64,000 nt of DNA from Okeania sp. SIO2C9 (lineage in GTDB: Bacteria > Cyanobacteriota > Cyanobacteriia > Cyanobacteriales > Microcoleaceae), in NCBI RefSeq assembly GCF_010672455.1, contig NZ_JAAHGO010000012.1:507102-571101 (forward strand), in the 5' to 3' direction. The notes beneath the pieces are model-generated. The model was not told where the DNA came from, made no database searches, and saw nothing but the letters and a program-made list of their open reading frames with translations. Shown here in pieces: positions 2,722-58,301 of this stretch (positions are counted from its first letter, which is position 1; each line of letters begins with the position of its first letter). The position numbers and the translations under genes were made by a program.

Positions 2722-3210
2722 AATTAGGTATTACCGGTCTAATCTAAAAGCATTGAAATATTCAAAAAATTCATTTTGGAGTCAAAAAAAGTGCAAATTT
2801 TTCAGATATTTATACTCATGCATGGAGCGTATTTTAGGCGCATAGTTGGGCATAAAAATTATTCTTAAAATTATTACCAAATGATTAATAATTAATAATT
2901 AAATAATTCTGGTTTAAAGCCTCCCCTTTTAAGGGAAAAAAGCGGTCGAAGGATGGCGCAATTCGGAGCGACTCTGATAAGAGCGGGTCTCCTCGCCATA
3001 TCCAATCGACCAAGAGAAAAGAAATAATATTTCCTTATATTCAATCAAGAGCGGTTAAAACCCGAGGTAATTATCAATTATCAATTATCCATTATCCATT
3101 ATAAATTAATGAATCCTACCTCCTCGCTCATTCCCCGTTCTTCCTGTTTCCTGTCTCCAGTATAGCTGTCTCTTCGCCCTACTAAAAGACTTTTTCAACA
3201 AACCCTAATT
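2722..3210. mobile_element. MITE GGG...CCC family, copy 2, interrupted by a nested repeat
   Basis: Left end TAATTA then GG at 2722, right end AAACCC then TAATTA at 3201-3210. The interior from about 2880 to 3110 is another repeat (TAATTAT heptamers plus the palindromic CTCCCCTTTTAAGGG core and a GCGGTCGA...TCGACC segment). The element sits on the stop codon of proX copy 3, exactly as copy 1 sits on proX copy 2. Confidence 0.6.
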
Positions 3211-4218
3211 AGCAACTTTTCTCGCTGTTTCTAACCAATTATCATATTTTTTTTGATGATTTTTTACCCATTCTTGAGCATGACGCAGAATATCTTCTGG
3301 TTGGTATTCTCCCTCTTTAATACGTAAACTTTCAACATTCATATCTGCCACTGGAATTTCAACTAATTCAAACCATTTTCTCGCTACTGGGTTTGCTTCT
3401 AAGAATTTTTTATTAGCCACAATATATTGTTGCAGTAAGGGAAAGCCAAGATTTTTTCCATCTACTGATGTATCTTTTTCATTCATATTTCCCATAGATT
3501 CTGGTAAGAAAGTAAAAGGAACTTCTAACCAAATTGCATCTTCCCCTGGTTTTAAAATTGTATATATCCAGTGTGGATTAAAGCCATAATAAATAATAGA
3601 TTTTCCTTGCTGGTAGCGAGTAATAGCATCTGCCAGAAAAATTGTATATTGACCTCGATTCTGTTCTACTGTATCTTTTAGTCCATAAGCTTCAATTTGA
3701 TTATCTATAATTAATTCACAAGCCCAACCAGGATTGCAACCTACTAAGTTAGCTTTACCATCTCCATCTGAGTCAAAAAGTTTGGCTATTTCTGGATCTT
3801 TTAATTGTTTAATGTTAGTAATATTATATTTATCGGCTGTTTTTTTATCAATTTGATATCCACTTCTTCCGTTAGGAGTTAAAATTCCAACTCCTTCTAA
3901 TTTTTCTTCACCACCAGCATTTTCAAAGAATTTTTCGTGTCCTGGTAAGTAATAAATAACGCTATAGTCTAAGTCTCCATTAGCTATAGAAATATAAAGT
4001 GCTGGGTAATCAATTTCCTTTGGCTTTTCTACTTTATAGCCGAGTTTTTCTAGACCTATATTGACAATATTAGTTTGGAATGACTCTTCTATCCAGTTAC
4101 TATGGGCACTACGAATAATTACTGTTTGGGAATTGGGAGTTTGTTGACAGGAAGCAAAAATTATTAATACGCTTGTGAGGATTGTTCCTAAGATAATTTT
4201 TAGTAGTTTTTGTTTCAT
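3205..4218 (-). CDS. ProX-type substrate-binding lipoprotein, copy 3
   Basis: 337 residues, full length. Signal peptide with lipobox FASC near residue 24, then the family core with DSDGDGKANLVGCNPGWACE around residues 150-170 and the conserved C-terminal EPEDILRHAQEWVKNHQ-like helix. It is predicted to be an extracytoplasmic solute receptor for a quaternary amine. The stop codon TAG is provided by the TAATTA target duplication of the neighbouring MITE. Spacing to the next array gene is about 1 kb and is filled with repeats, so co-transcription is unlikely and each copy probably has its own promoter. Confidence 0.85.
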   Translation of the reverse strand: MKQKLLKIILGTILTSVLIIFASCQQTPNSQTVIIRSAHSNWIEESFQTNIVNIGLEKLGYKVEKPKEIDYPALYISIANGDLDYSVIYYLPGHEKFFENAGGEEKLEGVGILTPNGRSGYQIDKKTADKYNITNIKQLKDPEIAKLFDSDGDGKANLVGCNPGWACELIIDNQIEAYGLKDTVEQNRGQYTIFLADAITRYQQGKSIIYYGFNPHWIYTILKPGEDAIWLEVPFTFLPESMGNMNEKDTSVDGKNLGFPLLQQYIVANKKFLEANPVARKWFELVEIPVADMNVESLRIKEGEYQPEDILRHAQEWVKNHQKKYDNWLETARKVAN

Positions 4219-4244
4219 GTTATTGAGATTGAAAAAAAATTATA

Positions 4245-4375
4245 TAAGTAGGTAGGTCTAATTAAACGTTAAAAAAATTGTAGGGGCGGGTTTAACTGAA
4301 AGCTTTGACTTAAGAGTAATCAAGTTATAAAAATATGCCCTTTAATATTGCGTTTATTTATGCTCATCTACTTAC
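4245..4375. mobile_element. Inverted-repeat element (AAGTAGGTAGG ends), copy 1
   Basis: It starts AAGTAGGTAGGTCTAATTAA and ends TTATGCTCATCTACTTA, an imperfect terminal inverted repeat. A second copy in the opposite orientation is at 45515-45649 and shares interior blocks such as GGGCGGGTTT and AAAGCTTTGACTTAAG. About 131 bp, non-coding. Confidence 0.6.
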
Positions 4376-4547
4376 GTTTTTTTTGAGTCAAATTGTAATA
4401 ATATAAGTTCTTTGTAAATCCCTGGAAAAAACACCATATTTATTCTTTTAAGTAGTCAAGCAAAATTAATTGTATATTTGATGGTCAGCTTAAATAGGTA
4501 AGAAAAATTATTTTTATATCGACTGCTCAATCAAACAAGTATATTTT

Positions 4548-4737
4548 ATACCAATTATCATGCATTAATCCTATACTTAGGTGACGCTTCAGTTATTAAA
4601 TAATTAATACAGACAAATTCCCTTTTTGCTAATTGGCAGCTTAGTTAATATGAATTATTCTTATGTTTATTTTTCCCCACTTCCCTACTCCCCTACTCCC
4701 CTACTCTGAAATAGATAAAGTTTTTGATAAATGGTAT
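4548..4737. mobile_element. ATACCA...TGGTAT inverted-repeat element, copy 2
   Basis: Ends ATACCAATTATC and GATAAATGGTAT. It contains an octamer run of the CCCCTACT type. Same family as 906-1186 and 60892-61116. Confidence 0.45.
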
Positions 4738-4981
4738 TATTTCCTATTTCCTACTAAAAAATGTTAAATTTATTTTGCACGGACACTTTGTTTGATGAAA
4801 GTTTTGAGCTGAATAAATGAAGTATAGCATTAGTTTTTTTGATGAGGGCAATAAATTTTTATTTCTAGATAACAGGCAACAGATAATAGATAAATTTTCT
4901 CATATTAATGTGTAGCACCATAGCAATAAAATTGGAAATTTTAACTGCATATAATTGAGACAAAATTCAAACTAATTTAAT

Positions 4982-5023
4982 AGCTGAGACTTCAACATGT
5001 GAAATTTAGTCTCAGCTTTTTTT
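4982..5023 (+). terminator. Perfect 10-bp stem followed by a T run
   Basis: AGCTGAGACT at 4982-4991 pairs perfectly with AGTCTCAGCT at 5008-5017, with a 16-nt loop and T through 5023 on the plus strand. The shape is that of a Rho-independent terminator reading rightward, but no plus-strand gene precedes it. It may instead stop antisense transcription into proX copy 4 or be a repeat remnant, since similar TCTCAGC-T tracts occur near 845 and 2660. Confidence 0.4.
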
Positions 5024-5206
5024 ACTTTTATAGCGGTTTTCACAAAGAGAGACTACAGTAAAAATTATAGATATGCACCAAGCAGGTGAAAATTGTAGAA
5101 ATCGTTGTATTCTATATTAATGAAAACCTCTGAAAAATCCTTTTAGTTAAGATTTTGTAGTGATGAAATATCCCCTGATTGACTATTAAAATTATTGACC
5201 CATACT

Positions 5207-6223
5207 TTAATTAGCAGCTTGCTTTGCTGTTTCTAACCAACCATCATACTTTTGTTGATTATTTTTTATCCATTCTTGAGCATGACGCAGAATATCTTCT
5301 TGTGTATCTTCACCTTCTTTAATACGTAAACTTTCAGCATTCATATCCACAATTGGAATTTCAACTAACTCAAACCATCTTTTGGCAACTGGGTTTGATT
5401 CTAGGAATTTTTTATTAGCTACTATACGCTGTTGAAGTACGGGAAAGCCAAATTTTTTTCCATCTAGAGATGTATCTTTTTCACTTAAATTTCCTATAGA
5501 TTCTGGTAAAGAAGTAAAAGGAACTTCCAATGAAACTACATCTTCATTTGGTTTGAAAACTGTTGATATCCAATGAGGTTCGTAAGCATAATAAAGAATT
5601 GGTTTTCCTTCCTGATAACGAGTCATTGCATCTGCCAAGAGAATTTCATATTGTCCTTGATTATGTTCTACTGTATCTTCTAATTCATAAGCTTTAAGAT
5701 GATGATTGATAACTAATTCACAAGACCAACCAGGATTACAACCAACTAAATTTGCTTTGCCATCTCCATCGGAATCAAAAAGTTTGGCTATTTCTGGATC
5801 TTTTAATTGTTCAATTTTAGTAATGTTATATTTATCGGCGGTTTTTTTGTCTATTTCATATCTTTGTATTCCATTAGGGGTTAAAGTTCCAACTTTCTCT
5901 AACTTTTCTGAACCACCAGCATTTTCAAAGAATTCATTGTGTTGCGGTTCATAGAAAACAGTGCTATATTCTAAATCTCCATTGGCAAGAGAAATATAAA
6001 TTGCTGGATATTCAATTTGTTTTGGTCTTTCAACTTTATAGCCGAGTTTTTCTAAACCTATATTTACTACTTCGGTTTGAAATAATTCTTGTATCCAGGT
6101 ACTATTAGCACTCCGAATAGTAACTGTTTCAGCAGAATCAGGAACTTGTTGACAGGAAGTAAAAATCACTAATAAGCTGGTGATAATTGTTCCTAGAATA
6201 GTTTTGAGATATTTTTGTTTCAT
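5207..6223 (-). CDS. ProX-type substrate-binding lipoprotein, copy 4
   Basis: 338 residues, intact. The lipobox FTSC follows a hydrophobic signal; the core DSDGDGKANLVGCNPGWSCE is at about residues 149-168, and the C-terminal lobe ends ETAKQAAN. It is the most diverged in the ligand-lobe segment (FYEPQHNEFF where copy 5 has YYQPGHKKFF), hinting at a different ligand preference. Its stop is TAA within AATTAAAG, the uninterrupted version of the site occupied by MITEs in copies 2 and 3. Confidence 0.86.
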   Translation of the reverse strand: MKQKYLKTILGTIITSLLVIFTSCQQVPDSAETVTIRSANSTWIQELFQTEVVNIGLEKLGYKVERPKQIEYPAIYISLANGDLEYSTVFYEPQHNEFFENAGGSEKLEKVGTLTPNGIQRYEIDKKTADKYNITKIEQLKDPEIAKLFDSDGDGKANLVGCNPGWSCELVINHHLKAYELEDTVEHNQGQYEILLADAMTRYQEGKPILYYAYEPHWISTVFKPNEDVVSLEVPFTSLPESIGNLSEKDTSLDGKKFGFPVLQQRIVANKKFLESNPVAKRWFELVEIPIVDMNAESLRIKEGEDTQEDILRHAQEWIKNNQQKYDGWLETAKQAAN

Positions 6224-6679
6224 TGTGGTTTGATGGAAATTTTTTTCATCAATAGTATTTTACTACTCTCAGCACTAAAGATTTATAGAAATTTGAGAAT
6301 AGGCAAAAGGCACTATATTTTGATTCAGATATTCATAATTAATTTATAGCAATTTTCCTCTTGGTTGAGATAAACAAATTTTGGGTTTTAGGGAACACCA
6401 GATATGAGAATCAAAATCAAGAGAGAAATACTGTATTCATTAATATGAAAACCGCGATATGTAAAAATTATGAGAACAACACAAGATAAATATTTGAGTT
6501 TTACGATCTTTTTGGCGGAATAAAGCAGCAATTCGATCAGAAAATTGAAGCCATGGAACTATCAGAATCTGAAATAATTTATAGAGGTAATACTTGAATA
6601 ATTTTCAATTCAGCTTCCGCTTTTTTTATGACTATTCACATCCATTTAAGTACTGAAAGCTTCTGAAGATTTTTCCTAC
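6224..6679. other. Gene-free stretch between proX copies 4 and 5
   Basis: About 450 bp with no credible frame. The segment just before 6680 (CAGCTTCCGC followed by seven T) resembles the T-tract motifs found in the other inter-proX spacers, consistent with duplication of a unit larger than the gene. Confidence 0.4.
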
Positions 6680-7693
6680 TTAACTAGCTTCTTTTCTTGC
6701 TACTTCCAACCAATTATCATATTCTTTTTGATTATCTTTTACCCACTCTTGAGCATGACGCAGAATATCTTCTGGTTTGTCTTCACCCTCTTTTATACGT
6801 AAACTTTCAGCATTCATATCTGCAACTGGAATTTTGACTAATTCAAACCATTTTTTTGCAACTGAGTTAGCTTCTAGGAATTTTTTATTAGCAACAATAC
6901 CCTGATCGCCTTTAGGAAGGCCAAAATTTTTTCCATCTACTGATGTATCTTTTTCACTCAGATTTCCCATAGATTCTGGTAAAGATGTGAAAGGAACTTC
7001 TAACCAAACTACATCTTCTCCTGGTTGTAAAACTGCAGATATCCAGTGAGGATTATAGGCATAATAAAGAATAGGTTCCCCTTTTTGATAACGAGTAACA
7101 GCATCTGCTAATAAAATTGTATATTGGCCTCGATTATGTTCTACAGTATCTTCTAGTCCATAAGCTTCAATTTGATGGTCTATGGCTAATTCACAACCCC
7201 AACCTGCATTACAACCAACTAAATTTGCCTTACCATCTTTATCTGAGTCAAAAAGTTGGGCAATTTCTGGGTCTTTTAATTGTTGAAGGTTAGTAATGTT
7301 ATATTTATCGGCGGTTTTTTTATCTATTTGATATCCTTGAATTCCATTAGGAGTTAAAATTCCTACTCCCTCTAATTTTTCTTCGCCACCAGCATTTTCA
7401 AAGAATTTTTTGTGTCCTGGTTGGTAATAAATAACACTATAGTCTAAATCTCCATTAGCTATGGAAATATAAAGTGCCGGATAATCAATTTGTTTAGGTT
7501 TTTCGACCTTGTAGCCTAATTTTTCTAAACCTATATTCACAACTTCGGTTTGAAATAATTCTTCTATCCAATTACTATGAGCACTCCGAATAGTTAAACT
7601 TTCATTATTTGGCGATGGTTGACAGGAAGTAAAAACTATTAATAAGCTGGTCAGGATTGTTCCTAAAATAATTTTGAGATATTTTTGTTTCAT
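6680..7693 (-). CDS. ProX-type substrate-binding lipoprotein, copy 5
   Basis: 337 residues, intact, first gene of the array in its direction of transcription. Signal peptide with lipobox FTSC, core DSDKDGKANLVGCNAGWGCE (one D/K and one P/A change against sisters), C-terminus ARKEAS. It is divergent from rplI, with a 288-bp spacer that holds a dispersed repeat and the probable rplI promoter. No ATPase or permease gene accompanies the array, so these receptors must pair with a transporter encoded elsewhere. Confidence 0.86.
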   Translation of the reverse strand: MKQKYLKIILGTILTSLLIVFTSCQPSPNNESLTIRSAHSNWIEELFQTEVVNIGLEKLGYKVEKPKQIDYPALYISIANGDLDYSVIYYQPGHKKFFENAGGEEKLEGVGILTPNGIQGYQIDKKTADKYNITNLQQLKDPEIAQLFDSDKDGKANLVGCNAGWGCELAIDHQIEAYGLEDTVEHNRGQYTILLADAVTRYQKGEPILYYAYNPHWISAVLQPGEDVVWLEVPFTSLPESMGNLSEKDTSVDGKNFGLPKGDQGIVANKKFLEANSVAKKWFELVKIPVADMNAESLRIKEGEDKPEDILRHAQEWVKDNQKEYDNWLEVARKEAS

Positions 7694-7981: not shown

Positions 7982-8440
7982 ATGGCCAAAAAATTACAGG
8001 TAGTCCTGAATCAAGATGTCAAAAAATTGGGAATATCCGGAGATGTAGTAGAAGTAGCTCCTGGTTATGCTCGTAATTATTTGATTCCTCAGAAAATTGC
8101 TTTTCGTACTACTCCAGGTATTCTTAAACAGGTAGAACGTCGTAGAGAACAAGAGCGACAAAGACAAATAGAATTGAAGCAAGCAGCAGAAGCTCAAAAG
8201 ACGGCTTTGGAAACAGTTGGTCGCTTTAAAATTGCTAAACAAGTTGGGGAAAATGATGCAATTTTTGGTACCGTTACTGATAGAGAATTAGTGGATGTAA
8301 TTAAGGAAAATACTGGTCAAGAAATTGATAGACGTGGCGTTACTTTGCCAGAAATTAGCAAAGTTGGATTCTACAAAGCTCAAATTAAACTTCATCCTGA
8401 GGTAACTGCTGAAGTTGAAGTTCAAGTAGTAGGTAGTTAA
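7982..8440 (+). CDS. rplI: 50S ribosomal protein bL9
   Basis: 152 residues, the usual length. The N-terminal domain has the L9 signature ([18 protein letters not shown], residues about 20-37), followed by the long connecting helix rich in R, Q and E (residues 48-75) and the C-terminal RNA-binding domain. L9 sits at the base of the L1 stalk of the large subunit and influences reading-frame maintenance. rplI followed by dnaB is a common cyanobacterial gene order, and dnaB follows here. TTATCAG heptamer repeats start directly after the stop codon. Confidence 0.97.
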
Positions 8441-8904: not shown

Positions 8905-11900
8905 ATGTCTAGCGATCGCCTACCTCCCCAAAATATTGAAGCGGAAGAAGCTATTTTAGGTGGTATTCTCCTCGACCCAGAAGCTGTTAGTCGAGTCACA
9001 GAATTATTACGCCCAGAGTTTTTTGCCATTGAAGCTCATCAAATTCTTTATAAAGCAATGTGGCAACTTTATAATCAGGGCAAACCTACAGATTTAATGA
9101 CTGTTACCAGTTGGCTTACTGATAATAATAAATTAGAAAAGATTGGCGGACAAGTAAAAATAGTTCAACTATTAGAACGAACTGTTTCGGCGGTTAATAT
9201 TGACCAATATGCTGTTTTAGTTATTGATAAATATATCCGCAGAAAATTAATTCAAGCAGGAAATGAAATTTTTGATTTAGGGTTTCAAACAGCTACTGAA
9301 TTAAAAACTATTCTTGACCAAGCTGAACAAAAAATATTTGCTCTTACTCAGGATAAACCACAACAAGATTTAGTTCCTATTTCTGAGACTTTAATCAATA
9401 CTTTTCAGGAGATTGAAGATAGAAATGAGGGAATTGCTTTACCTGGTCTTGCTTGTGGTTTTTACGATCTAGATGCAATGACTGGAGGTTTTCAGCGTTC
9501 GGATTTAATTATTGTGGCTGGTCGTCCCTCAATGGGAAAATGTGCTGCTTTTGATACTTTAGTTTTGCAAAAAGATGGCAGTTTAATTACTTTGGCAGAG
9601 GTTTATCAAAGGCAAGAAACGGAGTTATTAACTCTAGGCAAAAATTGGAAGTTTCACATTACTAAACCTTCTGCTTTTATTGATGATGGAATTAAACCTG
9701 TATTTAGAGTAAGAACAAAATCGGGAAGATTTGTAGAGACGACAATTAGTCATCCTTTTCTAACAGTTGATGGTTGGAAACCTTTGGCAAAATTACAAGT
9801 AGGAGAAAAAATAGCTGTACCGCGTCGATTAGATGTTTTTGGTAATGAAACTATTCCAGAAAATCAGTTTGCTTCTCTGATTGATTCTGATAATTTCTGT
9901 CTTTCTCCTATTGTCTTGAAATTAGAAAAATCGCAATTAGCTTTATTCATTAGATATTTATTTTCTCAGGATGGATGGGTAAAAATATTGGAGAGTAGGG
10001 GAGTATGTTTTGGTTATTCTGTGGAGAGTGAAAACTTTGTTAGGCAAGTACAACATCTTTTACTCAGATTTGGAATTATTGGTGCTATTGAAAAGGTTGA
10101 AGAGGGTAAAAGTAGGAAAAGAAAGACGAATAAAAATTTGTGGCATTTAACTATTACTGATACTTTATCTGTGAAAAATTTGGTGGCAGATATTGGTAAT
10201 TTTCCATCTATAAATTTAGATTTATCTTCTAGCAGATTAAATTTAGTCAGACAGGATAATTTCTGGGTTGAGGAATTAGAAAATACTCAGATTTTCTGGG
10301 ATAAAGTTCTTGTTGTGATGGAAAAGTTTGCCGGATTTAGATTTCTATCAGCACAGAGCAAAAATCAAAAAATCAAGACCGAGGAAAATTTCGAGCATTT
10401 CACTACTACTGATACTTTCTGTGAGAAAAATATTCTGACAGATATGAGAAATTTTCCATCTATAAATCTAGATTTCCACTCCAGTAGATTAAATTTACTC
10501 AGAAAGGAGAATTTCTGGGTTGAGCAACTAAAAAATACTCATATTTTCTGGAATGAAATTGTTTATGTGATGGAAAAGTTTGCTGAATCTAGATGGTTTT
10601 CACCACAGAGGAGAAACGGCACAAGACAGACGGATAAAAATTTCATACATTTAACGACTTGTGAAACTTTATCTGTGAAAAGCGGTGCGACAAATATTAG
10701 TAGTTCTCTATCAGAAGATTTGGATTTCGACTCAGACAGATTTGATCTAGCTAAACCGGATAATGCCTGGAGGGAAAAATTAGAAAATCGGGCATTTTTC
10801 TGGCATAAATTGGTGAGTCTGGTGGAAAATTTTGCCGAATCTAAAAATCAGTCGGTAAATAGTAGAAGTGGGAAAAGAACCTCTCCTAAAAATTCAGAGA
10901 ATTTAACTAGTACTGATACTATATGTGGAAGAAATTTTCTGGCAGATGCTGATACTATCTATGGGAAAAATTTTCTGGCAGATATGAGAAATCTTCCATC
11001 AGAAAATCTGGATTTCCACTCCGACAGATTCAATTTAACTAAACCGGATAATGCCTGGAGAGAACAATTAGAAAATCGGGAATTTTTCTGGAATAAATTG
11101 GCGAGTCTGGTGGAAAAGTTTGCCGAATCTCAAAATCAGTCGCTCCAAAGTAGAACTGTCAAAAGAAAGTCCGATAAAAATGCCGAGAATTTAACTACTA
11201 CTTACACTCTCCATGGGAAAAATTTTCTGGCAGATATGAGAAATCTTCCATCAGAAAATCTGGATTTCCACTCCGACAGATTCAATTTAACTAAACCGGA
11301 TAATGCCTGGAGAGAACAATTAGAAAATCGGGCATTTTTCTGGGATGAATTGGTGAGTCTGATGGAAAAGTTTGCCGAATCTAAAAATCAGTCACTTCAG
11401 AGTAGAACTGTCAAAGGAAAGTCGCATAAAAATTCTGAGAATTTAACTACTACTTACACTCTCCATGGGAAAAATTTTCTGGCAGATATGAGAAATCTTC
11501 CATCAGAAAATCTGGATTTCCACTCCGACAGATTCAATTTAACTAAACCGGATAATGCCTGGAGAGAACAATTAGAAAATCGGGAATTTTTCTGGAATAA
11601 ATTGGCGAGTCTGGTGGAAAAGTTTGCCGAATCTCAAAATCAGTCGCTCCAAAGTAGAACTGTCAAAAGAAAGTCCGATAAAAATGCCGAGAATTTAACT
11701 ACTACTTACACTCTCCATGGGAAAAATTTTCTGGCAGATATGAGAAATCTTCCATCAGAAAATCTGGATTTCCACTCCGACAGATTCAATTTAACTAAAC
11801 CGGATAATGCCTGGAGAGAACAATTAGAAAATCGGGAATTTTTCTGGAATAAATTGGCGAGTCTGGTGGAAAAGTTTGCCGAATCTCAAAATCAGTCGGT

Positions 11901-14900
11901 AAATAGTAGAAAGGTCAAAGGAAAGTCGCATAAAAATTCTGATAACTTAACGACTACTCATACTATCTGTGGAAAAAATATTCTGGCAGATATGGTAGAT
12001 TTTCCATCAGAAAATCAAGATTTTTACTCGGATAGATTAAATTTAGTCAGGCCAGATAATTTCTGGGTTGAGGAATTAGAAAATCGGGCATTTTTCTGGC
12101 ATAAATTGGCGAGTCTGGTGGAAAATTTTGCCGAATCAAAAAATCAGTCGGTAAATAGTAGAAGTGGGAAAAGAACCTCTCCTAAAAATTCAGAGAATTT
12201 AACTACTACTGATACTATATGTGGAAGAAATTTTCTGGCAGATGCTGATACTATCTATGGGAAAAATTTTCTGGCAGATATGGGAAATCTTCCATCAGAA
12301 AATCTGGATTTTAACTCCGACAGATTCAATTTAGCTAAACCGGATAATGCCTGGAGAGAACAATTAGAAAATCGGGCATTTTTCTGGGATGAATTGGTGA
12401 GTCTGATGGAAAAGTTTGCCGAATCTAAAAATCAGTCACTTCAGAGTAGAACTGTCAAAGGAAAGTCGCATAAAAATTCTGAGAATTTAACTACTGCCGA
12501 TACTCTCTATAAGAAAAATATTCTGGCAGATATAGAAAATTTTCCATCAGAAAATCTGGATTTCGACTTTGAGAAATTAAATTTAGTCAGACCAGAGAAT
12601 TCCTGGAGCGAGCAATTAGAAAGTAGGGATATTTTCTGGAATGAATTGGTTAATCTGACAGAAAATTTTGCCGAATCTCAAAAGCAGTCGGTCAAGAGTA
12701 GAACTGTCAAAGAAAAGTCCGATAAAAATGTCAATAATTTAACTACTACTAATGCTCTCTATAGAAAAAATATTCTGACAGATATCAGAAACCTTCCATC
12801 AGAAAATCAAGATTTTGACTCCCACAGATTAAATTTAGTCAGACCAGAGAATTCCGGGAGGGAGGAATTAGAAAATCGGGATATTTTCTGGAATAAATTG
12901 GTTAACCTGATAGAAAATTTTGCCGAATCTCAAAAGCAGTCGGTCAAGAGTAGAACTGTCAAAGGAAAGTCCGATAAAAATGTCAATAATTTAACTATTA
13001 CTAATGCTCTCTATAGAAAAAATATTCTGACAGATATCAGAAACCTTCCATCAGAAAATCAAGATTTTGACTCCCACAGATTAAATTTAGTCAGACCAGA
13101 GAATTCCGGGAGGGAGGAATTAGAAAATCGGGATATTTTCTGGAATAAATTGGTTAATCTGATAGAAAATTTTGCCGAATCAAAAAATCAGTTGGTCAAA
13201 AGTAGAACTGTCAAAGGAAAGTCCGATAAAAATGTCAATAATTTAACTATTACTAATGCTCTCTATAGAAAAAATATTCTGACAGATACCAGAAACCTTC
13301 CATCAGAAAATCAAGATTTTGACTCCCACAGATTAAATTTAGTCAGACCAGAGAATTCCGGGAGGGAGGAATTAGAAAATCGGGATATTTTCTGGAATAA
13401 ATTGGTTAATCTGATAGAAAATTTTGCCGAATCAAAAAATCAGTTGGTCAAAAGTAGAACTGTCAAAGAAAAGTCTCCTAAAAATTCTGATAACTTAACG
13501 ACTACTGATACTATCTGTGGAGAAAATCTTCTGACAGATATTGGTAATTTTCCATCAGAAAATCAAGATTTTGATTCCCACAGATTAAATTTAATAAGAC
13601 CAGAGAATTCCGGGAGTGAACAATTAGAAAATCGGGATATTTTCTGGAATGAATTGGTTGATCTGATAGAAAATTTTGCCGAATCTCAAAAGCAGTCGGT
13701 CAAGAGTAGAACTGTCAAAGGAAAGTCCGATAAAAATGTCAATAATTTAACTATTACTAATGCTCTCTATAGAAAAAATATTCTGACAGATATCAGAAAC
13801 CTTCCATCAGAAAATCAAGATTTTGACTCCCACAGATTAAATGTAGTCAGACCAAAGAATTCCGGGAGTGAACAATTAGAAAATCGGGATATTTTCTGGA
13901 ATAAATTGGTTAATCTGATAGAAAATTTTGCCGAATCAAAAAATCAGTCGCTCCAAAGTAGAACTGTCAAAAGAAAGTCCGATAAAAATGCCGAGAATTT
14001 AACTACTACTTACACTCTCCATGGGAAAAATATTCTGACAGATATGGGAAATCTTCCATCAGAAAATCTGGATTTACACTCCGACAGATTCAATTTAGCT
14101 AAACCCGATAATGCCTGGAGAGAACAATTAGAAAATCGGGAATTTTTCTGGAATAAATTGGTGAGTATGGTGGAAAAGTTTGCCAAACCTAAAAATCAGT
14201 CACTTCAGAGTAGAACTGTCAAAGGAAAGTCGCATAAAAATTCTGAGAATTTAACTACTGCTGATGCTCTCTATAAGAAAAATTTTCTGGCAGATATGAG
14301 AAACCTTCCATCAGAAAATCTGGATTTACACTCCGATAGATTCAATTTAGCTAAACCCGATAATGCCTGGAGAGAACAATTAGAAAATCGGGAATTTTTC
14401 TGGAATAAATTGGCGAGTCTGGTGGAAAAGTTTGCCGAACCTAAAAATCAGTCACTTCAGAGTAGAACTGTCAAAGGAAAGTCGCATAAAAATTCTGAGA
14501 ATTTAACTACTGCTGATGCTCTCTATAAGAAAAATTTTCTGACAGATATGAGAAACCTTCCATCAGAAAATCTGGATTTCGACTTTGAGAAATTAAACTT
14601 AGTCAAACCACAGAATTCCTGCACAAAGCATTTAGAAAATAGCGATCTTTACTGGGATGAAATTGTTTCAATAGAACCAGTCGGAGAAAAACAAGTATAC
14701 GATCTGACCATACCAGAAACTCATAATTTTGTAGCCAATGATATTTGTCTTCATAACACCAGCTTTGCTGTAAATATTGGTCATAGTATTGCAGCTAATC
14801 TCAAATTACCAGTAGCAATTTTTAGCCTAGAAATGTCTAAGGAACAATTGGTATTAAGGCTATTAGCAAGTGAGGCAAAAATTGAAAGTAATAGATTGCG

Positions 14901-16008
14901 GTCTGGGCGAATTAGTCAGAGCGAATGGGAACCTTTAACTTCCGCTATTGGTAATCTTGCTGAAATGCCAATTTTTATTGATGATACTCCTAATATTACT
15001 GTTAATGAAATTCGTTCAAAAGTCAGACAATTACAAAGCGAACAAGGTGGAGCTTTAGGATTAATTTTATTAGATTATTTACAATTAATGGAAAGTAGTA
15101 GTAGTGATAATCGAGTCCAGGAATTAGCAAGAATTACTCGGAGTCTGAAGGGTTTAGCACGAGAACTTTCGGTGCCGATTATTGCTTTGTCTCAACTTAG
15201 CAGAAGCGTGGAGTCTCGAACTAATAAAAGACCGATGATGTCTGACTTAAGAGAGTCTGGTTGTTTGACTGGGGATACTTTAATTTATTTAGCTGATGGT
15301 AAAAAAATTCCTATTTCTTCTCTAGTTGGTAAGTCAAATTTTGCTGTTTTGGCTTTGAATGAAAATACTGGGAAATTTGAGTCGGCTATGGTTAGTCGAG
15401 TATTTTCTACTGGGGTTAAACCTATCTTTCGTCTGCAAACTTCTTCAGGAAAATTGATTAGGGCTACGGCTAATCATCCTTTCTTTTCTATGGGGGGTTG
15501 GAAACAGTTAAATACTCTGAATATTGGGGATTCTCTTGCTATTTTGAACCAAAAAATGCTTAAATATTCAATATTGTATTGTGGGCAATTCCTGTCTCAA
15601 GTGGATTTTGGGCCAAAACATGGTGGAAATTTAGGGTCTGTAGTTAAGTGTCGGGAGAGGGAAAAACCTACTCAAATTGATGTTAACTGGGATGAAATTG
15701 TGGAAATAAGACCAGATGGTGAGGCGGAGGTTTTTGACTTAACTGTGCCTGGTCTCCATAATTTTGTGGCGAATGAGATTGTTGTTCATAACTCTATTGA
15801 ACAAGATGCGGATTTAGTTATTATGCTTTATCGGGATGAGTATTATTCCCCAGATACTCCCGACCAAGGTATTGCTGAGGTGATTATTACTAAGCATCGG
15901 AATGGGCCAACTGGTACGGTTAAGTTATTGTTTGACCCCCAGTTTACTAAGTTTAGAAATTTGGCAATAAGAGGAGGGAACAGGGAACAGGGAACAGGGA
16001 ACAGATAA
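8905..16008 (+). CDS. dnaB: Replicative DNA helicase DnaB precursor with two inteins
   Basis: 2367 residues. Removing residues 213-1951 and 2120-2296 leaves 451 residues, the normal DnaB length. DnaB is the hexameric ATP-driven helicase at the replication fork. Extein 1 (1-212) holds the primase-binding N-domain and ends in the Walker A motif GRPSMGK; extein 2 (1952-2119) starts with T that completes GKT and carries the Walker B region LILLDYLQL; extein 3 (2297-2367) resumes at SIEQDADLV. Both insertion points are conserved ATP-site motifs, so the protein is active only if both inteins splice. The C-terminus is extended by NREQGTGNR, coded by a GGGAACA heptamer repeat. The 5' leader is a mobile repeat, and a relic of the gene start lies 300 bp upstream. 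Confidence 0.96.
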   Translation: MSSDRLPPQNIEAEEAILGGILLDPEAVSRVTELLRPEFFAIEAHQILYKAMWQLYNQGKPTDLMTVTSWLTDNNKLEKIGGQVKIVQLLERTVSAVNIDQYAVLVIDKYIRRKLIQAGNEIFDLGFQTATELKTILDQAEQKIFALTQDKPQQDLVPISETLINTFQEIEDRNEGIALPGLACGFYDLDAMTGGFQRSDLIIVAGRPSMGKCAAFDTLVLQKDGSLITLAEVYQRQETELLTLGKNWKFHITKPSAFIDDGIKPVFRVRTKSGRFVETTISHPFLTVDGWKPLAKLQVGEKIAVPRRLDVFGNETIPENQFASLIDSDNFCLSPIVLKLEKSQLALFIRYLFSQDGWVKILESRGVCFGYSVESENFVRQVQHLLLRFGIIGAIEKVEEGKSRKRKTNKNLWHLTITDTLSVKNLVADIGNFPSINLDLSSSRLNLVRQDNFWVEELENTQIFWDKVLVVMEKFAGFRFLSAQSKNQKIKTEENFEHFTTTDTFCEKNILTDMRNFPSINLDFHSSRLNLLRKENFWVEQLKNTHIFWNEIVYVMEKFAESRWFSPQRRNGTRQTDKNFIHLTTCETLSVKSGATNISSSLSEDLDFDSDRFDLAKPDNAWREKLENRAFFWHKLVSLVENFAESKNQSVNSRSGKRTSPKNSENLTSTDTICGRNFLADADTIYGKNFLADMRNLPSENLDFHSDRFNLTKPDNAWREQLENREFFWNKLASLVEKFAESQNQSLQSRTVKRKSDKNAENLTTTYTLHGKNFLADMRNLPSENLDFHSDRFNLTKPDNAWREQLENRAFFWDELVSLMEKFAESKNQSLQSRTVKGKSHKNSENLTTTYTLHGKNFLADMRNLPSENLDFHSDRFNLTKPDNAWREQLENREFFWNKLASLVEKFAESQNQSLQSRTVKRKSDKNAENLTTTYTLHGKNFLADMRNLPSENLDFHSDRFNLTKPDNAWREQLENREFFWNKLASLVEKFAESQNQSVNSRKVKGKSHKNSDNLTTTHTICGKNILADMVDFPSENQDFYSDRLNLVRPDNFWVEELENRAFFWHKLASLVENFAESKNQSVNSRSGKRTSPKNSENLTTTDTICGRNFLADADTIYGKNFLADMGNLPSENLDFNSDRFNLAKPDNAWREQLENRAFFWDELVSLMEKFAESKNQSLQSRTVKGKSHKNSENLTTADTLYKKNILADIENFPSENLDFDFEKLNLVRPENSWSEQLESRDIFWNELVNLTENFAESQKQSVKSRTVKEKSDKNVNNLTTTNALYRKNILTDIRNLPSENQDFDSHRLNLVRPENSGREELENRDIFWNKLVNLIENFAESQKQSVKSRTVKGKSDKNVNNLTITNALYRKNILTDIRNLPSENQDFDSHRLNLVRPENSGREELENRDIFWNKLVNLIENFAESKNQLVKSRTVKGKSDKNVNNLTITNALYRKNILTDTRNLPSENQDFDSHRLNLVRPENSGREELENRDIFWNKLVNLIENFAESKNQLVKSRTVKEKSPKNSDNLTTTDTICGENLLTDIGNFPSENQDFDSHRLNLIRPENSGSEQLENRDIFWNELVDLIENFAESQKQSVKSRTVKGKSDKNVNNLTITNALYRKNILTDIRNLPSENQDFDSHRLNVVRPKNSGSEQLENRDIFWNKLVNLIENFAESKNQSLQSRTVKRKSDKNAENLTTTYTLHGKNILTDMGNLPSENLDLHSDRFNLAKPDNAWREQLENREFFWNKLVSMVEKFAKPKNQSLQSRTVKGKSHKNSENLTTADALYKKNFLADMRNLPSENLDLHSDRFNLAKPDNAWREQLENREFFWNKLASLVEKFAEPKNQSLQSRTVKGKSHKNSENLTTADALYKKNFLTDMRNLPSENLDFDFEKLNLVKPQNSCTKHLENSDLYWDEIVSIEPVGEKQVYDLTIPETHNFVANDICLHNTSFAVNIGHSIAANLKLPVAIFSLEMSKEQLVLRLLASEAKIESNRLRSGRISQSEWEPLTSAIGNLAEMPIFIDDTPNITVNEIRSKVRQLQSEQGGALGLILLDYLQLMESSSSDNRVQELARITRSLKGLARELSVPIIALSQLSRSVESRTNKRPMMSDLRESGCLTGDTLIYLADGKKIPISSLVGKSNFAVLALNENTGKFESAMVSRVFSTGVKPIFRLQTSSGKLIRATANHPFFSMGGWKQLNTLNIGDSLAILNQKMLKYSILYCGQFLSQVDFGPKHGGNLGSVVKCREREKPTQIDVNWDEIVEIRPDGEAEVFDLTVPGLHNFVANEIVVHNSIEQDADLVIMLYRDEYYSPDTPDQGIAEVIITKHRNGPTGTVKLLFDPQFTKFRNLAIRGGNREQGTGNR
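9541..14757 (+). other. Giant intein 1 of DnaB (residues 213-1951, 1739 aa)
   Basis: It begins with Cys213 (CAAFDTLVLQKDGS, block A) directly after Walker A Lys212. Block B is TISHPFLTVDGWKPL at about 280-294. A partial LAGLIDADG-type segment follows (IRYLFSQDGWVKI near 347-359, then VQHLLLRFGIIG near 382-393); the usual first LAGLIDADG helix is not evident, so endonuclease activity is doubtful. After the repeat array come block F (VYDLTIPETHNFVAND) and block G ending His1950-Asn1951, with Thr1952 as +1 residue. All nucleophiles needed for standard splicing are present. The size is several-fold that of a normal endonuclease-bearing intein because of the internal array. Confidence 0.93.
10135..14640 (+). 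repeat. About 17-18 tandem copies of an 84-aa (252-nt) repeat inside intein 1
   Basis: Residues about 411-1912. Each unit has an NLT..D..(Y/C)..KN(F/I)L(A/T)D start, then LPSEN(L/Q)DF, R(F/L)NL, an LEN(R) segment, the anchor FW(N/D/H)(K/E)L, and an (E/K)FAES tail with basic SRTVK(G/R)KS. The period is exactly 252 nt (for example 11029 to 11281). Seventeen FW anchors are counted, and the partial eighteenth is YWDEIV, which is the start of intein block F. Units near the array ends are most diverged; central ones are nearly identical, typical of unequal exchange. It stays in frame throughout. Confidence 0.93.
15262..15792 (+). other. Mini-intein 2 of DnaB (residues 2120-2296, 177 aa)
   Basis: Starts Cys2120 (CLTGDTLIYLADGKKIPI, block A) after extein DLRESG. 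Block B is TANHPFFSMGGWKQL; the C-terminal part has VFDLTVPGLHNFVANEI and ends His2295-Asn2296, with Ser2297 as +1 residue. There is no endonuclease domain. Its WDEIVEIRPDGEAEVFDL segment aligns with the end of intein 1. Confidence 0.95.
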
Positions 16009-32756: not shown

Positions 32757-35700
32757 ATGACTCAATGCCTAAATCCAGATTGTTTAAAATTAAACCCACC
32801 AGAAGCCAAATTCTGTCATAGTTGCAATGAAAAATTAGTTTTAGTCGAACGTTATCGCGCCTTAAAAATTATTGGACGGGGTGGTTTTGGTCGAACTTTT
32901 CAAGCAGTGGATGAATTTAAACCCTCAAAGCCTTTTTGTGTAATTAAACAATTTTTACCCCAATTACAAGAACCGAAAAATTTATCAAAAGCTGCTCTAT
33001 TATTTGCTCAAGAAGCTGAACGTTTAGATACTTTAGGTAGACATCCACAAATCCCCGAACTTTTGGCATATTTCACTCAAGATAATCGACAGTATTTAGT
33101 ACAAGAATTTATCGACGGGCAAAATTTACAACAGGAATTAAAGAAGTCAGGAGCTTTTAATGAAAGACAAATTTTGGAGTTGTTAAAAAGTTTATTGCCC
33201 GTATTGGAATTTATTCATTCTCAACAGGTAATTCATCGAGATATTAAACCAGAGAATATTATTAGGAGAAAAAATAATAATCAATTTTATCCAGTGCGAG
33301 CTTCTAGCTCGCCAGATAAAATTAATCCAGTGCGAGCTTCTAGCTCGCCAGAGAATAATATTATATTAGTAGATTTTGGCATAGCGAAATTTGTGGCAAA
33401 GACTGCTTTAGCTGTGACAGGAACTATTATTGGCTCTGAAGGATATGCTCCTCCCGAACAAGCAATAGGAAAAGCAACCTTTTCTAGCGATATTTATAGT
33501 TTGGGCGTAACTTGTATTCATTTATTAACTGAAGTCGAACCTTTTAAGTTATTTGACGTGGGTGAAGGTGAGTGGATATGGCGAGATTATTTAAAGTCAA
33601 AGGTGAGTGATGAAGTAGGAAATTTGTTGGATAAAATGATTGTCAGGGCGACTAACAAAAGATTTCAAAATCCAGGAGAAATCTTGTCGCTGATTAATCA
33701 GACTTATCAAACGGAAAAAACATTTACCCTTCCACCACAAATATCTCAAAAATCAACAGCACCACCCATTATTAATAAAACTTCTCCACCACAAACATTT
33801 CTAGAATCAATACCAGAATCAGAAATAGGAGAAATATTTACTTTTGAAGTAGTGACTATTAATAATTGTGGCAAAATCATCAACCGCACCCCCGGTAATG
33901 CCAGACAAAAAATAGAAGATTTAGGTAATGGTATTAAATTAGAAATGGTTTATATTCCTGGTGGAAGTTTTCTCATGGGTTCCCCAGAAAAAGAAGTTGA
34001 AAGACTTAATAGTGAAAGTCCTCAACATCAGGTTACTCTCCAACCTTTTTATATGAGTAAATACCCCATTACTCAAAATCAATATCAAGCCATTATGGGA
34101 GAAAATCCTTCTAACTTTAAAGGAGGAAACCATCCAGTAGAAAAAGTGACATGGCATAACGCCACAGAATTTTGTCAAAGACTCTCTGAGAAAACTGGGA
34201 AAATTTATAAACTACCCAGTGAAAGTCAGTGGGAATATGCTTGTCGCGCAGGTACAACTACTCCTTTTTATTTTGGAGAAACTATAACGTCTGAGTTAGT
34301 TAACTACAACGGTAACTATATTTATGGCAACGTCCCCAAAGGTAAACATCTAGAAAAAACAACCGAAGTGGGAAGTTTTCCTCCCAATGCTTTTGGTTTA
34401 TACGATATGCACGGCAATGTCTGGGAATGGTGTCTGGACATTTGGCGCAATAACTATAACGGTGCACCTACTGATGGAAGTCCCTGGGAAAATGAAGGGG
34501 ATAGTAGTCAACGACTTCTTCGTGGTGGTTGTTGGAACATACATCCTCAGTTTTGTCGAAGTGCTCGCCGTATTAGAAATAATGCTGACTACTACGGCAC
34601 CTACTGGGGTTTCCGCATTCTCTTGTTGCCTGATTTTCAGAAAAAGTTTCAAAATTCTGGGGAAATATCGTCAGTTATGAACCAGACTTATCCAACGGAA
34701 AAAAAGTTAACCCCTCCACTACAAATATCCAAAAAATTAACAGCACCATCCCCTATTAATGAAACTTCTCCACCACAAACATTTCTCAAATCAATACCAG
34801 AATCAGAAATAGGAGAAATATTTACTTTTGAAGTAGTGACTATTAATAATTGTGGCAAAATCATCAACCGCACCCCCGTTAGTGCCAGACAAAAAATCGA
34901 AGATTTAGGTAATGGTATTAAATTAGAAATGGTTTATATTCCTGGGGGAAATTTTCTGATGGGTTCCCCAGAAAACGAACAGGGAAGAAGCTCTGATGAA
35001 AGTCCGCAACATCAAGTGATTCTCCAACCTTTTTATATGAGTAAATACCCCATTACTCAAGAACAATATCAGGCAATTACCAAAGAAAATCCTTCTCACT
35101 TTAAAGGAAAAAGTCGCCCAGTTGAAAATGTGAAATGGCATGAAGCAGTAGAGTTTTGCCAAAAGCTTTCTGAGAAAACTGGGAAAATTTATAGACTGCC
35201 AAGCGAGAGTCAATGGGAATATGCTTGTCGTGCAGGTACAACTACTCCTTTCTATTTTGGAGAAACTATAACGTCTGAGTTAGTTAACTATAACGGTAAT
35301 TATCCTTATAGTAATGCCCCTAAAGATAAATATCGACGAGAAACAACCGAAGTGGGAAGTTTTCCTCCAAATGCTTTTGGTTTATACGATATGCACGGCA
35401 ATGTTTGGGAATGGTGTCTGGATATTTGGCACAATAACTATGATGATGCACCTAATGATGGAAGTGCTTGGGAAAGTGGAAGATATAGTTTTAGAAGGGT
35501 GTTCCGTGGTGGGAGTTGGCTCAAACGTTCTAGGAGTTGCCGGAGTGCTTGGCGTAGCTACTACTATAGCGTCGAATTTGGCATAAGTGTGGGTTTTCGG
35601 ATTGTCTGGTATACCTCGGAAGTAAGAAATTCTTTGGATAATATGGCTGTGGATACAACTAACAAAAGATTTCAAAATACAGGGGAAATATTGTCAGTTA

Positions 35701-39479: not shown

Positions 39480-41231
39480 ATGACCCAATGCCTAAACCCA
39501 GATTGTTTAAAAACCAACCCACCAGAAACAAAATTTTGTCAAAGCTGCGGTGAAAAATTAATTTTAGTCGAACGTTATCGCGCTCTAAAAATTATTGGGC
39601 AAGGTGGTTTTGGCAGAACTTTTCAAGCTGTAGATGAGTACAGACCATCAAAACCTTTTTGTGTAATTAAACAATTTTTTCCTCAAGCTCAAGGAACCAA
39701 AAACCTAGAAAAAGCTGCCTCATTATTTGCCCAAGAAGCTGAACGTTTAGATAGTTTAGGTAGACATCCACAAATTCCCGAACTTTTGGCATATTTTACT
39801 CAGGATAACCGACAGTATTTAGTGCAAGAATTTATAGACGGGCAAAATTTAAAACAGGAATTAGAGTTGTCAGGAACTTTTGATGAAAGGCAAATTTGGG
39901 AGTTGTTAAAAAGTTTATTGCCCGTATTGGAATTTATTCATTCTCGACAGGTAATTCATCGAGATATAAAACCAGAGAATATTATTAGGAGAAGAAAAGA
40001 TAACCAATTATTATTAGTAGATTTTGGGGCAGCTAAATATGCAACAAAGACTGCTTTAGCTGTGACAGGAACTGTAATTGGTTCGGCAGGATATGCTGCA
40101 CCAGAACAAGCATTAGGAAAAGCAACTTTTGCTAGCGATATTTATAGTTTGGGTGTGACTTCTATTCATTTATTAACTCAGGTAGAACCTTTTGATTTAT
40201 TTGATGTGAGTGAAGGTGAATGGGTGTGGCGAGAATATTTAAAGTTTACCGTCAGTGATGAAGTTGCTAAACTATTAGATAAAATGATTATGGGAGCGAC
40301 CAAGAAAAGGTTTCAAAATGTAGGAGAGATATTATCGGTTGTTAACCCTAAATATCAAAAAAAAATCAACTCTATTTACAAGCCAAAAAAATTTCCAATA
40401 TTTACAAAAGAAGTAGCAAAAGGAGAAAGGTTTACTTTTGAGGTTGTGACGGTCAATAACTCTGGCAAAATCATCAAGCGCACCCAGAGAAATGCGAGGC
40501 AAAAAATAGAAGATTTAGGTAATGGTATTAAATTAGAAATGGTTTATATTCCTGGTGGTAGTTTTCTCATAGGTTCACCGAAAAACGAAGCTGGAAGAAC
40601 TGATAAAGAAAGTCCCCAGCGTAAAGTAACTCTTCAAGCTTTTTGTATGAGTAAATACCCCATTACTCAAGACCAATACTTAGTGATTATGGGGGAAAAT
40701 CCTTCTTATTTTATAGGAGGAAACCGCCCAGTAGAGAGAGTGACATGGCATAACGCTACAGAATTTTGTCAAAGGCTATCTGAGAAGACTAGGAAAACCT
40801 ACAGACTACCCAGTGAGAGTCAGTGGGAATATGCTTGTCGCGCTGGTACGACTACTCCTTTTTATTTTGGCCCTACTATTACCACTGATTTAGTTAACTA
40901 CAATGGTAAGTATACTTATGACAATGCACCTAAAGGTAAATATCGAGAACATACTACCGATGTGGGAAGTTTTCCTCCCAATGCTTTTGGTTTATATGAC
41001 ATGCACGGGAATGTAGACGAGTGGTGTCAGGATATTTGGCATAATAGCTATGAAGGTATTCCCACTGATGGCAATGCTTGGGAAAGTAAGGAAAATAGTG
41101 AGTTACGAGTGCTCTGTGGAGGTAGTTGGAATGACTATCCCTGGTGGTGTCGAAGCGCTGATCGTGACTGGGATAATACAAATATCTGCATTAACAATGT
41201 GGGTTTCCGGGTGGTTTGCTTGTCATTTTAG
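39480..41231 (+). CDS. Ser/Thr protein kinase with one FGE-sulfatase domain, DGR-target type
   Basis: 583 residues, single-unit paralogue of the gene at 32757. Zinc ribbon C4, C9, C20, C23; kinase motifs GQGGFG, VIK, HRDIKPEN, DFGAAK and AAPEQA; FGE domain about 341-583 with YIPGGSFLIGSP, LPSESQWEYACRAG and DMHGNVDEWC, ending in a 32-codon variable cassette and a short tail. It lacks the palindromic insertion in the kinase domain and retains an uninterrupted AGGAGA leader. The two genes, their downstream conserved block and the hydrolase end form a duplicated segment. Predicted to combine phosphorylation signalling with a diversified ligand-binding lectin fold. Confidence 0.9.
   Translation: MTQCLNPDCLKTNPPETKFCQSCGEKLILVERYRALKIIGQGGFGRTFQAVDEYRPSKPFCVIKQFFPQAQGTKNLEKAASLFAQEAERLDSLGRHPQIPELLAYFTQDNRQYLVQEFIDGQNLKQELELSGTFDERQIWELLKSLLPVLEFIHSRQVIHRDIKPENIIRRRKDNQLLLVDFGAAKYATKTALAVTGTVIGSAGYAAPEQALGKATFASDIYSLGVTSIHLLTQVEPFDLFDVSEGEWVWREYLKFTVSDEVAKLLDKMIMGATKKRFQNVGEILSVVNPKYQKKINSIYKPKKFPIFTKEVAKGERFTFEVVTVNNSGKIIKRTQRNARQKIEDLGNGIKLEMVYIPGGSFLIGSPKNEAGRTDKESPQRKVTLQAFCMSKYPITQDQYLVIMGENPSYFIGGNRPVERVTWHNATEFCQRLSEKTRKTYRLPSESQWEYACRAGTTTPFYFGPTITTDLVNYNGKYTYDNAPKGKYREHTTDVGSFPPNAFGLYDMHGNVDEWCQDIWHNSYEGIPTDGNAWESKENSELRVLCGGSWNDYPWWCRSADRDWDNTNICINNVGFRVVCLSF
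41115..41210 (+). other. Variable cassette VR5 (96 nt)
   Basis: CGGSWNDYPWW then CRSAD...GFR, 32 codons, seven codons from the stop. Many variable codons are still AAT/AAC/GAC, the pattern expected of a lightly mutated adenine-rich template. Confidence 0.78.
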
Positions 41232-56225: not shown

Positions 56226-56655
56226 TTTAGGTAATATAGCGTCGATTAAGTTACTGAGGCACAGTTGTTTTTCTTCTTTTCTATTCCCTACTCCCTACTC
56301 CCTAAAAAAAATGAATTTTGCACCTCACCAGCATGGGAATTGCTATAAGTAATAGAGATTTTATTGTCACAAAAATGACAGACAAAAAGTATTTCATAAT
56401 TCATCTAAATATTCTCTCGCAATAGTAAGTTTTTTTCAGAAATTATCAAATTTTGTAAGCATTCAGCCATCAGCTATTACTTTTTTTTAGTTCTACGATA
56501 AAAGCTTTACTAATTGAGTGAGAATTAAATTTTACGCCTAAAAGCTGGCTTTAAAGTCTATATATTAAAATCCCCTCATAAGAGCTGAAAGCTGACAGCT
56601 AATAGCTGTTTGCGCAGCATGACCTAGGAAATGCTTACCAAATTTTTTTACCTCA

Positions 56656-58280: not shown

Positions 58281-58301
58281 TCATAGCCTATCTTTAACAG
58301 T

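Follow-up and report, generated by a model that had tools for sequence, protein, structure and literature searches.

A DnaB intein of Okeania sp. SIO2C9 apparently inflated by tandem copies of its own endonuclease tail

How does a gene for the replicative helicase DnaB come to carry an intein about four times the size of the helicase itself, and does the bulk of that intein do anything? Here, we address this question for dnaB in a 64,000-nucleotide stretch of the cyanobacterium Okeania sp. SIO2C9 (contig NZ_JAAHGO010000012.1, positions 507,102 to 571,101; hereafter the window). The DnaB precursor contains two inteins, a and b. Intein a is inserted into Walker A of DnaB, between GRPSMGK and T, has a mass of 202 kDa based on its composition, and is largely made up of a tandem array. 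We consider it probable that intein a is a splicing-competent, endonuclease-dead, class 1-type DnaB intein that was inflated by tandem duplication and is tolerated because it still splices. The coordinates of all features are listed in Table 1.

The ends of intein a are those of an intein that would splice. Class 1 inteins have an N-terminal Cys, a T-x-x-H motif in block B, a C-terminal His-Asn and a +1 nucleophile. Intein a begins with Cys213 of the precursor, has TISH in block B, ends with His1950 and Asn1951, and is followed by Thr1952. Its N-terminal Hint part matches the Ssp DnaB intein 1mi8 with an E value of 8.8e-12 in phmmer. Along the precursor, Pfam has one match each to the DnaB N-terminal domain and LAGLIDADG_3 and two each to DnaB_C and the intein splicing domain, and removal of the inteins restores a full DnaB of 451 amino acids (aa) with the Pfam domains DnaB and DnaB_C. 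The first-pass annotation of this DNA had described a 1739-residue DnaB intein inflated in one open frame by an 84-residue tandem repeat; its coordinates are exact, and the four splice residues that it named are intact on reading the sequence. Its extein sum of 451 residues is also right, but only once intein b, which it did not mention, is taken out as well. From these motifs, intein a is inferred to be splicing-competent. The genome context fits. In the genome (10.88 Mb in 317 contigs, with a completeness rating of 99.98%), a search for DnaB_C gave four places, two of them within the dnaB gene (288.9 and 45 bits). The other two lie on C23 (51 bits, above the family cut-off of 27) and C262 (21.7 bits, below it), in frames of 520 and 525 aa, the starts of which resemble RadA and KaiC by eye. 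The dnaB gene described here is the sole full-strength DnaB_C gene located, and because the genome is nearly complete, its precursor presumably must splice.

The endonuclease of intein a is very probably dead. The Pfam match to LAGLIDADG_3 (precursor residues 344-431, E 1.6e-11), which the first-pass annotation lacked, overlaps the first unit of the array. An active LAGLIDADG homing endonuclease has two motifs with catalytic acidic residues, and here the first is absent. Comparison with inteins at the same site places this loss in a lineage. All 11 allelic inteins fetched from other genera, which were taken from a larger number of matches among the genomes of the family, have the first motif (ILGYLLGDG and similar; seven called by pattern and four, L052-L055, by eye, with L053 having GNG, i.e., Asn for Asp). 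By contrast, all eight complete inteins of the repeat-bearing clade, including L007, which comes from a genome with the label Trichodesmium sp. jk18x7bins.61, lack the first motif and keep the second. In these eight, 29 residues precede the second motif, compared to 60-181 residues in the five outgroup inteins measured. The lineage of the genus and its nearest relatives has thus lost this motif, with a shortening of the endonuclease tail.

The array that follows the endonuclease remnant is far above chance level. Tandem Repeats Finder reports a period of 252 bp over 10949-14665 with 14.6 copies, 82% matches and a score of 3471, and a profile parse resolves 18 units, i.e., an original copy of 76 aa, 15 units of 84 aa and two of 96 aa, with neither a stop nor a frame break; the inflation by an 84-residue repeat in one open frame, as first annotated, is borne out. 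Apart from the LAGLIDADG_3 match overlapping unit 1, no Pfam family scores above cut-off in the array.

Three observations suggest where the unit came from. First, unit 1 extends the endonuclease tail and terminates in the start of block F. Second, L007 has an unexpanded intein of 327 aa in which the LAGLIDADG_3 match (intein residues 133-258) overlaps a single unit at 225-298; a profile of the window's units matches this copy with 60.4 bits (E 1.2e-19) and leaves weak traces in the outgroup inteins (11.7 bits at best). Third, the ends of the unit segment encode (A)IE and (S)IE in short runs of similar DNA, and at the internal junctions the two ends are fused. The repeat unit is thus not foreign: it consists of the endonuclease tail of this same intein together with the first strand of block F, an origin that the first-pass annotation had not seen. 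On a possible phage origin, a scan of viral contigs with six exact peptide patterns from the L007 intein, which reach close relatives only, confirmed no relative. We suggest tandem duplication of a stretch of ~84 aa that begins just behind the final helix of the endonuclease (AIEKVEEGK) and includes the first strand of block F (IFWDEIVS). Recombination or slippage between the similar DNA encoding (A)IE and (S)IE is a plausible mechanism.

The relatives form a ladder of copy numbers. The first 340 residues of intein a are matched in 53 of 61 genomes of the family, many of these matches being to the Hint part or intein b only. Eight complete inteins were parsed: five from the window's genus, among them those of Okeania sp. 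SIO2B3 (L005) and Okeania sp. SIO1I7 (L006), two from genus g11 and one, L007, from g4. They contain 18, 12, 10, 7, 4, 4, 2 and 1 units and are 1739, 1190, 985, 784, 532, 529, 394 and 327 aa long, respectively; one unit of the 10-unit array is truncated to 38 aa (L039_03) and was excluded from the unit tree and simulations. The allelic inteins from other genera are 374-495 aa long. Units are present in 5/5 genomes of the window's genus and 6/7 of g11, where in four genomes (G054-G057) the intein is interrupted by an N gap, meets a contig end or is split across two contigs; the seventh (G059) gave one match (E 1.5e-8), and its intein was not fetched. Natural split inteins were considered for dnaB of G054 and G056 and rejected, because the frame breaks fall at runs of 200 and 10 N and are assembly gaps. 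Across the order, a profile of 37 units matched 4 of 291 evenly sampled genomes, all from the window's genus or g11, with at most 18 first-look candidates scored per genome; among the places listed, all were on the dnaB contig of the respective genome.

Two trees, one of joined exteins and one of the Hint parts, were read without support values. In the former, L007 branches as sister to the remaining seven, and the copy numbers do not track the branches (18 beside 12, then 10, 4 and 7; 4 beside 2). The latter has L007 in the same place and recovers the pair G058/G060, with a different order within the window's genus. In a tree of 57 units, first units cluster together across genomes, and later units fall partly into genome-specific groups and partly into groups common to several genomes. 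The outcome is an array that has expanded and contracted, in frame throughout, to the 1 to 18 copies seen.

A rival reading, compatible with the favored one and in our view unlikely, is that assembly error accounts for part of the 18-copy length and the real number of units is different. The longest exact repeat within the array is 372 bp, so the copy number may be wrong if the assembly came from short reads; several units are nearly identical, and N gaps interrupt the arrays of two relatives from g11. On the other hand, many units are clearly different, the window contains no N, the array has no stop or frame break, and seven relatives have complete inteins of 1 to 12 units. Moreover, an artefact would alter the number of units and not the phenomenon.

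Evolutionary rates set the array apart from the Hint ends. The ratio of nonsynonymous to synonymous substitution rates (dN/dS) was calculated by a script as pooled pairwise Nei-Gojobori values, skipping pairs that share <30 codons; values for the Hint, remnant and C-terminal parts are from seven genomes, excluding L007. For units, dN/dS is 0.67 within the window's array and 0.61-0.88 within the other six arrays, with 0.77 for units of different genomes, compared to 0.335 for the N-terminal Hint part and 0.072 for the last 29 codons of the intein. Neutral simulations on the unit tree give an expectation of 0.78-0.79 for the window (standard deviation 0.11-0.12), and values at or below the observed 0.67 arose in 17/100 and 11/100 replicates at two branch scales. 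For 400 random pairs from all units, the observed 0.757 compares to expected values of 0.762 and 0.758. In simulations without selection against stops, a mean of 17.4 of the window's 18 units acquired a stop, and not one replicate in 300 came out stop-free. The stop-free array and near-neutral dN/dS together show that the frame is kept and the residues barely. Array residues evolve almost neutrally with some constraint at second positions, and the Hint ends are conserved. The first-pass annotation had offered two options for the repeat, compact folding or a role of its own; this reading is not supported, as unit divergence is close to that of neutral simulations and copy number ranges from 1 to 18 among relatives.

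We picture a tolerated loop. At the former endonuclease site, the array would form a long and probably flexible loop, across which the Hint halves would meet to splice DnaB, freeing a by-product of ~200 kDa. Selection would act against stop codons, loss of frame and damaged Hint ends, and the residues and length of the array would matter little. Structure prediction adds nothing on this point: AlphaFold2 gave a mean predicted local distance difference test score (pLDDT) of 27.5 for three units (31 aligned rows) and 29.9 for the whole 784-aa intein of Okeania sp. SIO2B3 (5 rows), and since scores were <50 even over the known Hint part, the predictions say nothing on fold or disorder. By a charge-hydropathy score, the array leans slightly towards disorder (-0.05, compared to +0.17 for the N-terminal Hint part), a difference too weak to use.

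Several points weigh against this picture. The flexibility of the array is unsupported by the AlphaFold2 predictions, with pLDDT <50 throughout both. The endonuclease remnant (residues 111-178) has a dN/dS of 0.322 and is thus as conserved as the N-terminal Hint part, which is surprising if this part is dead. There is less variation at second than at third codon positions, with a ratio of 0.64 in the window that none of 100 simulations reached at either scale, and of 0.83 for random pairs, reached in 1/100 and 4/100; some residue chemistry is thus kept, and the array is not purely neutral. Arrays in all five genomes of the genus would also be expected of a useful array. Finally, the pooled pairwise dN/dS values lack phylogenetic independence, and the simulations rest on a tree from the same data and cover the array units and not the Hint parts.

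A second rival reading makes the array functional: the units would form a repeat domain for binding a partner or tuning splicing and would thereby regulate the supply of DnaB. The second-position constraint and the occurrence of units in nearly all genomes of the window's genus and g11 speak for it, as does the reported stress response of mycobacterial DnaB inteins (PMC6195587). Yet copy number varies from 1 to 18 with partly genome-specific units, dN/dS of the array is indistinguishable from neutral simulation, no Pfam family is found above cut-off, and L007 manages with one copy, and so we hold a function of this kind to be rather unlikely.

A second swollen intein, in dnaE and not part of the first-pass annotation, bears on how general the process is. 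This gene, named by eye, lies outside the window on the same contig, ~19-27 kb to the left of the window (stretch 480500-488500, L070). Its start is beyond L070, and inteins are numbered as first and second seen there. In the first (526 aa, L070 1241-2818), Pfam detects an intein splicing domain but, searched up to E 0.1, no family of endonucleases; its array has seven unit starts with four spacings of 58 aa and two of 39, and the last unit enters the C-terminal part. The second (436 aa) matches LAGLIDADG_3 with E 1.3e-18 and is followed by the N half of a split intein (L070 4337 onward), the C half of which lies downstream (6114 onward), both recognized by eye; between the two halves is a tandem array of 375 bp × 3.4 copies (L070 4722-5959). 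The first dnaE intein is matched in 14 of the 61 family genomes (4/5 of the window's genus, the exception being G041, 7/7 of g11 and three others, one of them weak with E 5e-4), and length varies here too: the distance from first to last match in one frame is ~290 aa in G042, 384 in G055 and G001, 639 in G040, 741 in G043 and 906 in G057, compared to 509 for the query intein of this genome.

A search for related repeats in other inteins, proposed with the first-pass annotation, yielded homologous units in the dnaB inteins of relatives and a dissimilar array in dnaE. The dnaE and dnaB units have no significant similarity, with profile searches weak at best and an hhalign probability of 0.8%; common ancestry of the two arrays was rejected on these searches, though absent similarity does not prove independent origin. 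Other inteins of this genome, in genes resembling, by eye, thyX, gyrB and a sugar-nucleotide epimerase, showed no tandem array of long period within the stretches fetched. Arrays are thus found in two of the examined inteins of this genome, both without a complete endonuclease. Because intein b has neither endonuclease nor array, loss of the endonuclease is insufficient for an array to arise. That dissimilar arrays occur in two inteins of the same genome suggests that the process is general in these cyanobacteria and not an isolated accident. A bolder proposal, which we rate as improbable, is that endonuclease-dead inteins are growth sites in this clade, that dnaB and dnaE, both core replication genes and ~30 kb apart, independently gained dissimilar in-frame arrays, and that array length delays maturation of helicase and polymerase, copy number tuning replication capacity. 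If so, the delay would arise because the ribosome has to translate ~1500 extra residues before it reaches the second Hint half of the DnaB intein.

That dnaB is a decaying pseudogene, or intein a non-splicing, with another helicase doing the work, is very improbable: no support for it was found beyond the room that a draft of 317 contigs leaves for a second dnaB, and it conflicts with the one full-strength DnaB_C gene, the open frame with intact splice residues, the strongly conserved last 29 codons and the neighborhood of rplI.

Table 1. Features of the dnaB locus, with positions in the window
Feature	Positions	Strand	Basis
dnaB precursor open reading frame, 2367 aa	8905..16008	+	One open frame, ATG to stop; Pfam DnaB, DnaB_C, Intein_splicing, LAGLIDADG_3
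N-extein, 212 aa, C-terminal end GRPSMGK	8905..9540	+	Sequence reading
Intein a, 1739 aa, Cys1...His-Asn/Thr, precursor residues 213-1951	9541..14757	+	Sequence reading
N-terminal Hint part with blocks A and B (intein residues 1-110)	9541..9870	+	phmmer matches to DnaB inteins 1mi8, 6frg, 4o1r
Remnant of the decayed LAGLIDADG endonuclease (intein residues 111-182), with the second motif (LALFIRYLFSQDGW) and lacking the first	9871..10086	+	Pfam LAGLIDADG_3 1.6e-11; alignment to allelic inteins
Tandem array, 18 units, 1528 aa	10087..14670	+	Tandem Repeats Finder; profile parse
Unit 1, 76 aa: original endonuclease tail and block F start; clusters with unit 1 of relatives	10087..10314	+	Alignment, profile parse, unit tree
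Unit 4, 96 aa, with internal 12-aa duplication	10819..11106	+	Tandem Repeats Finder, profile parse
Unit 9, 96 aa, internal 12-aa duplication as in unit 4	12115..12402	+	Tandem Repeats Finder, profile parse
Unit 18, terminating in block F start LYWDEIVS, which joins the remainder of block F	14419..14670	+	Profile parse
C-terminal Hint part of 29 aa, comprising the remainder of block F plus block G	14671..14757	+	Sequence; dN/dS 0.072 across 7 genomes
Middle extein, 168 aa	14758..15261	+	Sequence reading
Intein b, mini-intein, 177 aa, Cys...His-Asn/Ser, precursor residues 2120-2296	15262..15792	+	Pfam Intein_splicing
C-extein plus stop codon, last codons within 7-bp repeat (15975-16004)	15793..16008	+	Frame and Tandem Repeats Finder
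rplI (ribosomal protein L9), upstream of dnaB	7982..8440	+	Pfam Ribosomal_L9_N and _C

The 7-bp repeat at the end of dnaB, AGGGAAC, reaches the stop codon and encodes the final codons (NREQGTGNR); the dnaB end of Okeania sp. SIO1I7 differs, and many more 7-bp arrays occur elsewhere in the window. The window also contains three consecutive open reading frames of 337-338 aa on the minus strand (3205-7693), two of which were tested and are glycine-betaine-type substrate-binding proteins (OpuAC), a protein kinase with four FGE-sulfatase-type stretches in a single 1637-aa frame (32757-37670) followed downstream by a second kinase with one such domain (39480-41231), and a tandem array with a 336-bp period, 5 copies and 88% matches (56655-58285).

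As for known systems, a DnaB intein with large tandem repeats has reportedly been described in Trichodesmium erythraeum (Yang, Meng and Liu, Molecular Microbiology, 2004, 'Intein harbouring large tandem repeats in replicative DNA helicase of Trichodesmium erythraeum'); as here, the host protein would be the replicative helicase, the organism a related cyanobacterium and the repeats large and inside the intein. A Trichodesmium type would be marked by the same insertion site and a homologous repeat unit; what was observed is a single homologous copy in an intein at the same site in L007, labelled Trichodesmium sp. Repeat-bearing DnaB inteins are already known in Trichodesmium, and we present the dnaE array as the new case. 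Our literature search found no recognizable paper on tandem-repeat inteins in cyanobacteria, and it found neither the parallel dnaE array, nor the derivation of the unit from a dead endonuclease, nor the 1-to-18 copy series; papers of 2003-2004 may contain part of this. The work of Liu and Yang (2003) on the dnaE inteins of T. erythraeum is cited in PMC5874633.

Compared to other DnaB inteins, including the Ssp DnaB intein (PDB 1mi8), intein a is alike in its N-terminal Hint part. It differs from the eleven allelic inteins of related genera in lacking the first LAGLIDADG motif and in carrying a 1528-aa array. DnaB of Mycobacterium smegmatis also contains two inteins, the splicing of which is reported to be stress-responsive, and the opening of that abstract mentions no repeat array (PMC6195587). 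Extra-large fungal Prp8 inteins exceed 800 aa and reach 1065 aa, combining a splicing domain, an endonuclease and a linker, and some of these linkers contain repeated motifs of unknown origin and function (PMC5784728). Intein a resembles them in its large size and its repeats; here, the endonuclease is short of one motif and is itself the source of the repeat. After loss of homing, an endonuclease can thus be amplified and not simply deleted. As this intein occurs naturally with anywhere from 1 to 18 copies of one insert, the tolerance of the Hint fold for extra chain between its halves becomes directly testable.

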